The position numbers were made by a program, and so were the translations under genes. A stretch of DNA of 64,000 bases from Candidatus Kryptonium sp. (GTDB lineage Bacteria; Bacteroidota; Ignavibacteria; Kryptoniales; Kryptoniaceae), in NCBI GenBank assembly GCA_025060635.1, contig JANXBN010000006.1, forward strand, positions 1 through 64,000, given 5' to 3'. Positions 1 through 3,928 of this stretch are shown here, one piece after another (the stretch's first letter is position 1; each line of letters opens with the position of its first letter). A model generated the notes under the pieces. It did no database searches, was not told the origin of the DNA, and saw only the letters and a program-made list of their open reading frames with translations.

Positions 1-47
1 GCTCAAAAACTTGTTGTTTTCATGCGAAATTTTCTACTTTTATAAAG
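1..47 (+). promoter_or_regulatory. probable CRISPR leader end (cut by window edge)
   Basis: This AT-rich stretch lies immediately before the first repeat. If the array continued leftward, an identical repeat should end around position 10-12, but only AAAC matches there, so repeat 1 is probably the leader-proximal repeat. The repeat ends in AATTTAAAC on the plus strand, resembling the ATTGAAAC/ATTGAAAT 5' handles of type I-B and III repeats. This fits transcription from left to right with the leader on this side. The inference is limited because the window starts only 47 bases upstream. Confidence 0.4.
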
Positions 48-1197
48 GTGAGAATTGAACCAGTGTGGAATTTAAACTTTGATTTTCTATTACAACTTCA
101 GATTCAATTTCAAGTGAGAATTGAACCAGTGTGGAATTTAAACAAGATTTCTGCGTTGATTTGGGGAAAGGAAGCGAGGGTGAGAATTGAACCAGTGTGG
201 AATTTAAACTTTTTAACTACAAAGAATTTCCCCAGCGGGGTTTCGTGAGAATTGAACCAGTGTGGAATTTAAACAATTTTTTACAAGAAATAAATTATTC
301 TCTAATCTTGTGAGAATTGAACCAGTGTGGAATTTAAACGCCTTTTCAATTAATCCTCAAAATCCTTTTCTCTTAGTGAGAATTGAACCAGTGTGGAATT
401 TAAACTATGGTAATTTGAATGAAAAATTGGAAGAAGTGATAGTGAGAATTGAACCAGTGTGGAATTTAAACTTCTTCAAGACATAATAATGCCCCAAAGG
501 CATTTCAGTGAGAATTGAACCAGTGTGGAATTTAAACATTGAAAAATTCTTGAGATTTATGTATGAAATTCAAGTGAGAATTGAACCAGTGTGGAATTTA
601 AACGAGGTTTTTTCGTTTAAAATGGGAAATTTTGTTAAAGTGAGAATTGAACCAGTGTGGAATTTAAACTTTTTCAACACATAGTATTGGCCAATTCGGT
701 TCTCAGTGAGAATTGAACCAGTGTGGAATTTAAACGTTGTTAAGAGAAAAGAAGAAGTTGCGAAAAAGAAAGGTGAGAATTGAACCAGTGTGGAATTTAA
801 ACATGTGCTGCTAATTTTTTATCCTTATCGTAAAGTTAGTGAGAATTGAACCAGTGTGGAATTTAAACAATGATAATTCTTGTTCTCTTGTTATCGTCCT
901 TGCTGTGAGAATTGAACCAGTGTGGAATTTAAACATTGTTCGGGTTGTTTGTGTTCATTTTACAACAGAGTGAGAATTGAACCAGTGTGGAATTTAAACT
1001 ATTTTTTTTGTCTCATCAATTGCCTAATCGCTGGGTGAGAATTGAACCAGTGTGGAATTTAAACAATCCTTATGCAATTCAAGCAAATCAATAACATAAA
1101 GGTGAGAATTGAACCAGTGTGGAATTTAAACAGTAAAATTGATAGCTTGGATTACAGGATTGCAGTTGTGAGAATTGAACCAGTGTGGAATTTAAAC
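48..1197 (+). CRISPR. CRISPR array, 18 identical 30-bp repeats, 17 spacers
   Basis: Eighteen copies of one 30-bp repeat, beginning GTGAGAATTG and ending GAATTTAAAC, start at 48, 114, 180, 245, 310, 376, 442, 508, 574, 640, 706, 773, 839, 905, 970, 1035, 1102 and 1168. All look identical by eye. Spacers are 35-37 nt. The repeat resembles the family with GTTAAAATC...ACC...TGG and an ATTGAAAT handle, so a type I-B or III system is likely, but no cas gene is in the window. Open frames that run through the array are artefacts of the 66-bp periodicity. Spacers 7 (472-507) and 10 (670-705) are related to each other. A block resembling one more spacer follows the last repeat at 1198-1234. Confidence 0.98.
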
Positions 1198-1234
1198 TTT
1201 TATAGAAAAGGCGGTCAATGTGTGTTGGATGATT
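1198..1234 (+). repeat. spacer-like block after the last repeat, homologous to 3863-3898
   Basis: This spacer-length block after repeat 18 shares TATAGAA, then GGTCAAT, then TG, GTTGGAT and ATT in the same order as 3863-3898, with one gap and three transitions in the well aligned part. The copy at 3863-3898 is directly followed by a real repeat; this copy is not. The pair looks like one ancestral spacer or array-end sequence present at both ends of the 2.6-kb segment between them. Confidence 0.7.
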
Positions 1235-1305
1235 ACATTCCCCATATTAGACAATCCACTTGAAATTCAAAAATAAAATAAAAATTTGATAAAAGGATTG
1301 CCTTT

Positions 1306-1449
1306 ATGGAAGAAAAAGAAATAAATGACAGTTAAACAAGTCGCTGAGTATTTACATATGGATGAATACACCGTATATATACTTGTCCGCGCAGGACTTA
1401 CCCCTTCCCTAAAATAGATGGCCATAAAATGTTAACAACTTCCCTATAG
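1306..1449 (+). pseudogene. decayed excisionase/MerR-type HTH (HTH_17) protein
   Basis: Three frames together rebuild a small DNA-binding domain. ATG at 1306 gives MEEKEI. After a frame change, the codons from 1325 give MTVKQVAEYLHMDEYTVY and then ILVRAGLTP. After another change they give FPKIDGHKML, ending at the stop at 1447. This is the classic layout of helix-turn-helix domains of the excisionase/HTH_17 family (T-V-K-x-V-A-E-Y-L, then T-V-Y-x-L-V, then K-I-D-G). Two frameshifts make it a pseudogene. Such proteins are typical of integrative elements and toxin-antitoxin or plasmid loci, so it hints that the segment arrived by transfer. The identification is by motif only. Confidence 0.6.
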
Positions 1450-1888
1450 GATAAAAATCTGTAGCCTCCTTTAAATGTTTTATTATTCCTATTTGTTTAA
1501 TTGAAATTTTTTGACTTCCGACAATATCTCATTATTCTTTTAAGATTGAAAGTGCGTAATTGTTTAACTTTGATCTAATGCTGCTCCTTCTCTCATCGTA
1601 ATTATTTGTCCCAACCATAAGTCATCATATAACATCTCCTCCAGCTGTTTTTTGAAATGTTGAATATAATTTTTATACCATCAGCTATAAACTCAATGAG
1701 AAATGCCTTTTCAGGTAGTTTTTTCATCAATTTTATGTTGAATATTTTTATCCTTCAGAGTCAAGATGTTATTGTCAGTAAGGATTCATAAAAACTATAC
1801 AAGTTTTCGCTTACGAGAGATGCTTGAGATAATCCATGAAAGACCTCATCAAAATATTAAAATGATTCCATACTAATTAGATTCTTTT
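1450..1888. other. gene-less stretch with coding relics on the minus strand
   Basis: No intact gene is visible. On the minus strand, two overlapping frames give protein-like text: one contains MKKLPEKAFLIEFIADGIK (about 1725-1668), the other FKKQLEEMLYDDLWLGQ (about 1663-1613). Either could be half of one small frameshifted protein. I do not recognise the family. Together with the HTH relic on its left, this suggests a decaying mobile or accessory segment. Confidence 0.35.
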
Positions 1889-3547
1889 CTATTTAGTTTC
1901 GTGGCTCTGCGCGCATTTCTTTAGCCTCTTTCTTATACTCTCTATTATGGCACTTCTTCTTTTTTCTAAAAAACCTTCTATGTTATCCTTTAATAAATCG
2001 TCCAAAGCATCCGGAGGTATAATGTGAGATTCTAATATAGACTTTAATTTCTCCTCTCCATGTAGCTTAACTAGCGTACCAAAATATTCAGAAGGTTTTT
2101 TATTTGATTTTTCAGCATTTGTTGAGATTAAAGTTCTATTCAAAATACGATTATCCTTGTAAATTGACTTTGGGAATATGTGGTCATCTTGTACTTTTTC
2201 TTCATCAAATTGTGGGGGCTGTCCAGTTTTAAAATCATAGGCACCTTGCAGTGTAATCAGATTCATAACTCCTCTGTATATTGCGGAAGATTGTTATCAA
2301 CATCTAAGTCTACTTCATCACAGTTAAATTTCCGGATAAAGTCGGGTTCTTTGTTATTCTCAATCCAGTCCTTAATGGCTTTGAAATCATTCGCTGATTT
2401 AGTATCTACCGCTTGGTCGTACCTATTAGAAAACACAGAAGACCAATACCAGCAGTCTATTTTATCATAACTTGACGATATATTTATACTTTTATTCTTT
2501 CTACGTTTATTCTTTCCATGTTCATCAGTAAAACCAAGTATAAAAGCAAGCATAGCAGCAAGTGGAACTAACATCGTAGTATAAGGCATCCACTTTTTAA
2601 AATCTAAAACACCATAACCATCTTTTGTATTAACGACTCGGTCGTATGCCTTTTCTAATGCCTCACATGCTATTTCCCAATCTTCTTTGAAATTTTTAGG
2701 AGCTAACTTAAGGATGATGTTTTTACGTGTTGGCTCTTTCTCTCTTATTAAAGCAATTACCTTTAAAATAAATTCTGGCGGAACAAATTTTAAAAACTCG
2801 TAGTTTTCTTTAGCGTCTTCTAATAATTCTCCTAATTTAATCTTATTTCTGTATAGTTTTGCGGCCAAAAGATCAAAAATAGACAGCGGTTCTCCAGTCC
2901 TATTTATTCTCTCAAAAGTTTCAACTATTTTTTTTAAATCTGTGTCTTTAGGCAAGAAAACCATGTGAATTTCATAATTTAGAAAATTTTCAGCCAGTTC
3001 TTCAATTTTTTTAATTATATGCTTAAATCTTGGATTTTTTTAAGTTCATTTATATTTCTAAGGTAACTAAATGGGATAATATTTTTTTTATTTTTTATTT
3101 TTTTCTGGTTTTTTTTGTCGTTTTTGCTTACTGCAATTACTGCACTATCCCACTGCGGGTTTTTTTGTTGAGTACCTTCTTATTCAAATTAAGATAAAAT
3201 TTATACGAACCTTTTCTGTTTTTTAGAGGTATATCTGGTTCATACAAAGCATAAAATAATGCTGTAGTTCGCTGTTGACCGTCCAGTAATATTTTTACTG
3301 TTCGTTGTGGTTGTTTTTTGACATCTGGATTAATTTCTTCTACACCTTCAATGAACCTTGTAGCAAAAGGAAATTCAGATTTATCCCCAGAAAATTCCAT
3401 CAATAACATGGAACCAATAAAGTAACCACCCAAGACAGAGACAAGTAATTCTTTCACATCTTCTGGTTCCCAAATGAAACTCCTTTGAAAATCTGGCAAA
3501 ACAATACTTCCATTATACACTTCGTTTATAAGTTCAGATACTTTCAT
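1889..3547 (-). pseudogene. DUF262/DUF1524 (GmrSD-like) protein split by three frameshifts
   Basis: Three minus-strand pieces make one protein of about 550 residues. Piece 3547-3137 holds the DUF262 N-terminus (LPDFQRSFIWEPEDV and the ILLDGQQRTTAL motif, a ParB/sulfiredoxin-type nucleotide-binding fold). Piece 2964-2263 holds the middle (FERINRTGEPLSIFDLLAAK, then CWYWSSVFSNRYDQAV). Piece 2266-1889 holds the DUF1524 HNH-type end (DDHIFPKS). The first break is an A7 run (3160-3166) and the second another A7 run (3035-3041); one extra A in each restores the frame. The third, near 2270-2300, also needs one more base, giving AIYRGVMNLITLQGAYDFKTG-type text. The start at 3547 has AGGAGG seven bases upstream. 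Relatives are type IV restriction enzymes and other phage-defence proteins. It may be a true pseudogene, a gene rescued by slippage on A7, or carry assembly errors. Confidence 0.85.
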
Positions 3548-3648
3548 ATTTCCTCCTATGGTTTATTTTGGTTTATAACAGATTATTTATGCTTTTCTCC
3601 TCTTATTACCCTATTGCGAGTTCCTAACGAACAATTATAACTGCCAGT

Positions 3649-3840
3649 TTACCACCAAGTTTTAATGCCCAATAGATATTTTTTATAGATCCTTTTAAGT
3701 CCCTCATAATACAAGCCAACCCTTGGTGGTAATCCATTATAGTTATCCTTATTTTTCATTCCTAAAAATCTGGCTTTAATATATAAAAAAAATGGAATTA
3801 ATGTCAAGGGGGCGAATTGCCTTATCAAAAATCTAAACAA
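3649..3840 (-). CDS. doubtful small ORF, 63 aa
   Basis: This minus-strand frame encodes a basic, aromatic-rich peptide starting MFRFLIRQF and ending LLGIKTWW. I recognise no family. It overlaps a promoter-like sequence on the same strand (3778-3807) and has no clear ribosome-binding site. It may be a spurious frame or another relic of the accessory segment. Confidence 0.2.
   Translation of the reverse strand: MFRFLIRQFAPLTLIPFFLYIKARFLGMKNKDNYNGLPPRVGLYYEGLKRIYKKYLLGIKTWW
3778..3807 (-). promoter_or_regulatory. sigma-70-like promoter toward the DUF262 gene
   Basis: Read on the minus strand, TTGACA (3807-3802) is followed after 18 bases by TATATT (3783-3778), the same -10 sequence seen at several other putative promoters here. 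Transcription would run left toward the DUF262 gene starting at 3547, leaving a leader of about 220 nt. The TTGACA match is perfect, but AT-rich DNA makes chance -10 boxes common. Confidence 0.35.
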
Positions 3841-3862
3841 AATTGAATCGTTGCCTTACACA

Positions 3863-3898
3863 ATCTATAGAAGTGTGGTCAATATGCGTTGGATAATT
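3863..3898 (+). repeat. spacer-like copy of 1198-1234, adjacent to the solitary repeat
   Basis: This 36-nt block, exactly one spacer long, precedes the solitary CRISPR repeat at 3899 and matches the block after the main array (1198-1234) with one gap and a few transitions. The matching order of segments (TATAGAA, GGTCAAT, GTTGGAT, ATT) makes chance unlikely. The differences do not follow codon wobble, so this is more like drift of one ancestral sequence than two protospacers from related genes. Confidence 0.7.
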
Positions 3899-3928
3899 GT
3901 GAGAATTGAACCAGTGTGGAATTTGAAC
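3899..3928 (+). repeat. solitary CRISPR repeat, one mismatch
   Basis: This stretch matches the array repeat at 29 of 30 positions; the only change is G for A in the end (TTTGAAC instead of TTTAAAC). It lies 2.7 kb from the array, in the same orientation, and no further repeat follows at the expected spacing. It appears to be a detached distal end of the array. The substitution falls in the predicted crRNA handle, so it is probably no longer functional. Confidence 0.93.

Follow-up and report, generated by a model that had tools for sequence, protein, structure and literature searches.

Spacers of two CRISPR array families in a Candidatus Kryptonium genome converge on two small reconstructed genes

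The R1 array of the window and the common site of spacers 3, 7 and 10

The window, i.e. the whole stretch of 64,000 nucleotides analysed here, lies on contig C6 of a 154-contig, 2.5 Mb assembly of Candidatus Kryptonium sp. and opens with a CRISPR array on the plus strand (positions 48 to 1197), composed of 18 perfect copies of a 30-nt repeat, hereafter R1 (GTGAGAATTGAACCAGTGTGGAATTTAAAC), and 17 complete spacers. The leader end of the array (1 to 47, plus strand) begins with the contig itself at position 1; on contig C26 a similar segment of 47 nt precedes the first repeat, and its last ~32 nt are identical to the leader end of the window. A degenerate terminal R1 repeat maps to positions 3899 to 3928 of the plus strand, with about 2.7 kb of other DNA between it and the array. 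This insert, which splits the last perfect repeat from the terminal one within the interval 1198 to 3928, carries small minus-strand ORFs, one of them weakly Cas9-like (below the cut-off) and another weakly PDC-M55C-like, and the 37-nt stretches on its two sides agree at 23/37 positions.

A preliminary description of this DNA had proposed that spacers 7 (472 to 507) and 10 (670 to 705), both 36 nt long, target the same site in two variants of one gene. The figures on which it relied were reproduced: the two spacers are identical at 24/36 positions without gaps, and 9 of the 12 differences (positions 3, 9, 15, 18, 21, 24, 26, 27, 28, 30, 31 and 33) fall in one codon phase, with a binomial P of 0.004. 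When spacer 10 was shuffled 200,000 times, its match to spacer 7 never rose above 22/36 and averaged 9.7. Read on the minus strand, the two spacers give the expected peptides EMPLGHYYVLK (spacer 7) and ENRIGQYYVLK (spacer 10). In addition, spacer 3 (210 to 244, minus strand, ETPLGKFFVVK), which was absent from that description, proved to be a third copy of the site, matching each of the other two at 22/35 positions in the same register. When all spacer pairs of the window array were compared, with offsets and strands tried, the pairings among spacers 3, 7 and 10 ranked as the top three.

All three spacers correspond to residues 23 to 33 of a small protein, PA, reconstructed from spacers as described below; spacers 7 and 10 are antisense to its mRNA and each has a predicted CCG PAM. 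The proposed repeated sampling of one site is borne out, and the remaining readable spacers in this genome support the derivation of spacers 7 and 10 from the identical spot, with the same codons and the same reading phase, in two variants of one gene. Moreover, spacer 3 is identical over 35 nt (35/35) to spacer C18.23, which belongs to an array with a different repeat, R2. The starts of these two spacers are 1 nt apart, which points to independent acquisition at one site. The sequence at C18:1513 was also considered as the protospacer itself, and was rejected because it is a spacer flanked by R2 repeats.

Further spacers of the window array could be assigned. Specifically, spacers 8 (538 to 573, IEKFLRFMYEIQ), 9 (604 to 639, EVFSFKMGNFVK) and 12 (803 to 838, VLLIFYPYRKV), all on the plus strand, correspond in sense orientation to a second reconstructed protein, PB. 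On the minus strand, spacer 4 (275 to 309, RLENNLFLVKN) maps to P2, an ORF overlapping the 3' end of PA, and spacer 5 (340 to 375) to the C-terminal end (..KDFED stop) of P5, another small ORF. Spacer 15 (1000 to 1034, no strand assigned) belongs to a T-rich spacer cluster defined at the DNA level, with a terminator-like hairpin region.

Reconstruction of PA and PB from the spacers of the genome

The R1 repeat is also present on contigs C13 and C26. The second repeat, R2 (GTTTGAATCGCACCTGTGAGGGATTGAAAC), was met through a peptide-motif search that reached contig C18, and occurs in 802 copies in the genome; named genomes with similar repeats belong to Ca. Kryptonium, Chrysopegis and Thermokryptus. 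All contigs carrying R1 or R2 together yielded 883 distinct readable spacers (98 R1 and 785 R2), a number counted on contigs of at least 3 kb, so that the true one may be higher. Strains may have been merged in the assembly. The end spacer of C26 is an internal spacer of C13, and these two contigs may therefore represent two versions of the leader end of a single array, each from a different strain.

An all-against-all comparison of the spacers returned 788 same-strand pairs at a score of at least 17, versus 9 in the reversed control and 7 in the complement control, and 79 clusters hold 622 of the spacers. By translating and tiling the largest clusters we obtained a PA consensus of about 82 aa (MYLNIISDEKIIAVYNPKRKMFENPIGKFFVLKNGIYLAIIFNNNYEIKKLLVQNGKYVFLEWQGAIPGDVLLKLNELKNKK) and a PB consensus of about 108 aa (MKLFINDVVEVFSFKQGNFVKPFEKFLRFVYEVEPPDVLLIFYPYPRISFNVNWKVIELKGTKLKDGYFYAIAINKDKIEILDGKLCLMLLKTGYGYLKVVKTIKLKN), which together account for ~570 nt. 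Both are reconstructions, since neither a protospacer nor a homologue was found, and each represents a consensus of spacers rather than any single real gene. The PA profile collected 223 spacers and the PB profile 220, with 2 control matches each; as disjoint sets, 221 and 210 spacers were assigned, i.e. 431/883 (49%), and P2, P5, P7 and P8 together took a further 59. The interpretation of the two spacers initially noticed is supported, and they are two of hundreds of such cases in the genome.

Because the same spacers both built and filled the profiles, the assignment was repeated with each contig withheld in turn: 427/883 spacers still fell on PA or PB, compared to 5 reversed spacers, a result which, with the controls, meets the circularity only in part. 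Profiles trained on R2 spacers alone recognised 19/98 R1 spacers and none of the reversed ones, and with C6 left out of the training, spacers 3, 7 and 10 were still placed on PA and spacers 8, 9 and 12 on PB. Among the spacers of four same-genus relatives, 1/333 passed the PA/PB profiles, and none passed at threshold 13 with earlier, separate profiles. The differences among PA spacers are distributed over the three codon positions with shares of 0.31/0.20/0.49, third positions being the highest. As for gene order, the P2 ORF follows PA and overlaps it, and some spacers, C4.17 for example, seem to contain the end of PA together with the start of P2; a few spacers suggest, not securely, that PB would lie just upstream of PA. 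A relationship of PA and PB as paralogues was not supported.

Several searches for the target were carried out. Against PHROGs, PA gave best E values of 0.034 (early version) and 0.13 (consensus), none of them significant, and PB gave no match. Early versions of PA, P0 and P2 had no match in Pfam, nor had PA and PB in NCBIfam; in the PDB the best value for PA was 0.18, not significant, and PB had none. Phage sequences were not matched by 20 spacers in blastn searches, nor phages and plasmids by the early PA reconstruction, the only query used, in tblastn. In viral contigs, degenerate patterns built on the peptides of PA, PB and the end of P5 found zero or unrelated matches; 5 viral-contig matches to the DVLLMFYPYK pattern were rejected for want of supporting context, and 2 to the KNGIY pattern because their frames contain stops. 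The PA search in 294 relatives returned matches in own-genome arrays plus three weak ones, with E close to 0.002, whose frames are long or interrupted, the combined PB and PA profile matched only own arrays in 395 genomes of the phylum, and a related-locus search in collections of genome contigs and viral contigs gave candidate stretches but no relative. Hence, of the proposed origin of spacers 7 and 10 from homologous genes of related phages or plasmids, the shared gene site stands, while no protospacer that would identify the carrier replicon came from the collections searched.

Many spacers, among them C14.20, C14.31, C5.40 and their neighbours (on L027 and L025), fall on GCACAATTGC-type repeats and on a GC hairpin with a T-run behind it. 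In the target, these elements are probably iterons and a terminator. Terminator-like and iteron-like targets, together with the PAM described below, speak for a DNA target.

The cas locus, PAMs, strand and time of sampling

Contig C12 carries a cas locus of type I-B gene content (cas6, cas8b1, cas7, cas5, cas3, cas4, cas1 and cas2). Cas8b1/Cst1, Cas7/DevR, Cas5b, Cas4, Cas1b and Cas2 scored over the NCBIfam cut-offs, and Cas3b was recognised by PADLOC. The predicted 5' PAMs, CCN for R1 and mainly TCN for R2, are consistent with the same type. The same contig also carries cmr1 and CARF genes, and it terminates in the R2 leader sequence that is likewise present on C4 and C9. No cas locus was found beside the R1 arrays, and a single Cas1 was found in the genome although the PAMs of R1 and R2 differ. 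Within the I-B locus, the protein encoded at L012:4492-6210 fuses a CARF/ring-nuclease-type domain to a sigma-54 activator domain, and a second CARF protein adjoins it.

The PAM bases were deduced from overlapping spacers, which stand in for real protospacer flanks. On this basis, CC occupies positions -3/-2 in 13/14 resolved R1 protospacers, versus a background of 3%, in agreement with the conserved PAM anticipated in the preliminary description. R2 protospacers are mainly preceded by TC (41% versus a background of 5%), and TT is near background. The protospacer of spacers 3, 7 and 10 ends beside the conserved Asn34-Gly35 of PA; the CC next to these spacers is explained by its being the complement of the conserved Asn-Gly codon pair. 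More generally, the 195 antisense PA spacers share 81 5' ends, compared to 135 +/- 5 expected under uniform placement.

A clear strand preference emerged for R2, whose spacers on PA and PB are 348 antisense and 63 sense to the mRNA (n = 411, 85%; P = 7e-49). Most of the corresponding crRNAs are thus antisense to the target mRNA, as a type III-B system sharing these arrays would require; the R1 spacers on the two genes show no strand bias (11 antisense, 9 sense). With respect to time, the oldest parts of the R1 arrays hold no PA or PB spacers (0/19 for spacers 27 to 45 of C26 and 0/20 for spacers 17 to 36 of C13, 0/39 in all), versus 14/42 in the younger parts of the same contigs. The PA/PB share is 24% and 41% in the two leader-attached R2 contigs versus 31-69% elsewhere, which may indicate that the targeting pressure has eased.

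Origin of the focus on PA and PB

The reading that we favour, and that we hold to be likely, is that PAM-limited I-B acquisition came first, and that selection, in which type III took part, then favoured spacers directed at an early operon carried by a DNA virus or plasmid of extreme diversity. According to this model, spacers 3, 7 and 10 would have been acquired independently from codons 23 to 33 of three PA alleles, each cut being fixed by a CCN PAM, and PA and PB would most likely be expressed early and belong to a single, very diverse family of DNA viruses or plasmids. The focus would then have been produced by interference-based selection, with type III as the candidate for R2 spacers, and not by biased uptake; the antisense bias of R2 would follow from selection for crRNAs that target RNA. 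Acquisition itself would be of the ordinary, PAM-bound kind, repeated over many alleles: the kind is known, and it is the degree of focus that is extreme and unusual.

The main competitor, which we regard as rather unlikely, places the origin of the focus at acquisition, with repeated I-B primed adaptation at mismatched protospacers drawing uptake back to one operon and one strand. The I-B locus and its PAM are present, identity among many of the overlapping variants is only ~60-65%, a degree of mismatch at which targets can prime, and the strand bias of R2 is strong. However, array neighbours fall on the same gene not clearly more often than by chance (120 versus 110 +/- 9) and are not clearly closer in position (median 78 versus 81 nt by chance), and R1, with its stricter PAM, has no strand bias.

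Somewhat less probable still is a target replicon so tiny that PA and PB make up a large part of it, in which case no special focus would be needed. That ~570 nt take half of the spacers, and that iteron-like and terminator-like sequences recur among them, would fit such a replicon; yet about 390 spacers lie outside PA, PB and P2/P5/P7/P8, and 211/394 unassigned spacers have no DNA neighbour, versus 18/223 PA spacers, which indicates that the remaining targets are much larger or far less sampled.

We consider very improbable that the target is an RNA phage, sampled from RNA through a reverse-transcriptase Cas1. The high nucleotide diversity, the antisense bias and the absence from DNA virus collections would agree with it, but a search of the genome for reverse transcriptase (PF00078), the mark of RT-CRISPR systems, gave no match, Cas1 is a plain 355-aa protein of I-B type, the PAM is clearly of DNA type, sense spacers exist, and a terminator-like hairpin with a T-run is among the targets. 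Finally, duplication and mutation of spacers within the arrays, in favour of which nothing was found, is virtually out of the question, given that the differences track codon positions, that matches are spread over three R1 contigs and over R2 arrays, whose repeat and PAM are different, and that spacers tile overlapping offsets on both strands, tiling and phase being already in contradiction with it.

Beyond the favoured model of PAM-limited acquisition followed by selection, we tentatively put forward, as a possibility on the doubtful side, that a hyperdiverse and so far undescribed lineage of Ca. Kryptonia viruses carries PA and PB as its pre-early or anti-defence operon, which would almost monopolise the memory of the host, so that two array families with differing PAMs and strand rules would record one long arms race over these two genes.

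A comparable focus has been described for the Thermus thermophilus phage phiFa, where most type III spacers derive from a short early region that encodes small proteins, and target its transcripts, a bias attributed by the authors to selection (PMC7515739). Both cases involve a thermophile and a small region whose short protein products have no known function, early in phiFa and putatively early here. In contrast, phiFa is one laboratory phage, whereas here two ORFs of ~570 nt in all, in many alleles, draw 49% of the spacers in a natural repertoire, and the I-B PAM is clear; moreover, the strand bias on phiFa vanished among unique spacers, whereas unique R2 spacers are 85% antisense. For I-B systems reported alongside type III, both CCN and TCN are listed as PAMs and a coding-strand bias is described, as observed here, but with an average of 55-65% on the coding strand, compared to 85% for R2 and no bias for R1.

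In Ca. Kryptonia, the excerpted text of PMC4737851 describes I-B/III-A CRISPR-Cas, with active spacer acquisition in Ca. Kryptobacter tengchongensis. The lineage and the combination of I-B with type III components are the same as here, the latter being III-A in that text and represented by cmr1 (III-B) in our genome; spacers were grouped there by 90-95% nucleotide identity, and those excerpts do not describe a focus on one operon. Likewise, certain virioplankton genes are preferentially matched by spacers (PMC6401485), so that in both cases some viral genes gather many of them, although those data are marine, community-wide and concern known functions, whereas ours concern one host and two genes without known function.

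Taken together, these arrays show with unusual clarity how CRISPR memory has converged on two genes in nature, a case in which independent spacers suffice to rebuild both target proteins, to read two PAMs and to date the onset of targeting. Should PA and PB indeed form an operon with an early or anti-defence role, sets of spacers could be used to flag the most important genes of unknown viruses. The arrays also provide a natural data set on biased uptake versus selection, because two array families in one genome have the same targets and different strand rules.

As a minor observation on the R2 arrays themselves, two of them, on L025 and L028, are followed at the trailer end, past the last R2 repeat, by R2-like sequences that contain an insert (CCTGTCCCGAAGGGATCCCTTAGGAATGAGGGATTGAAA).
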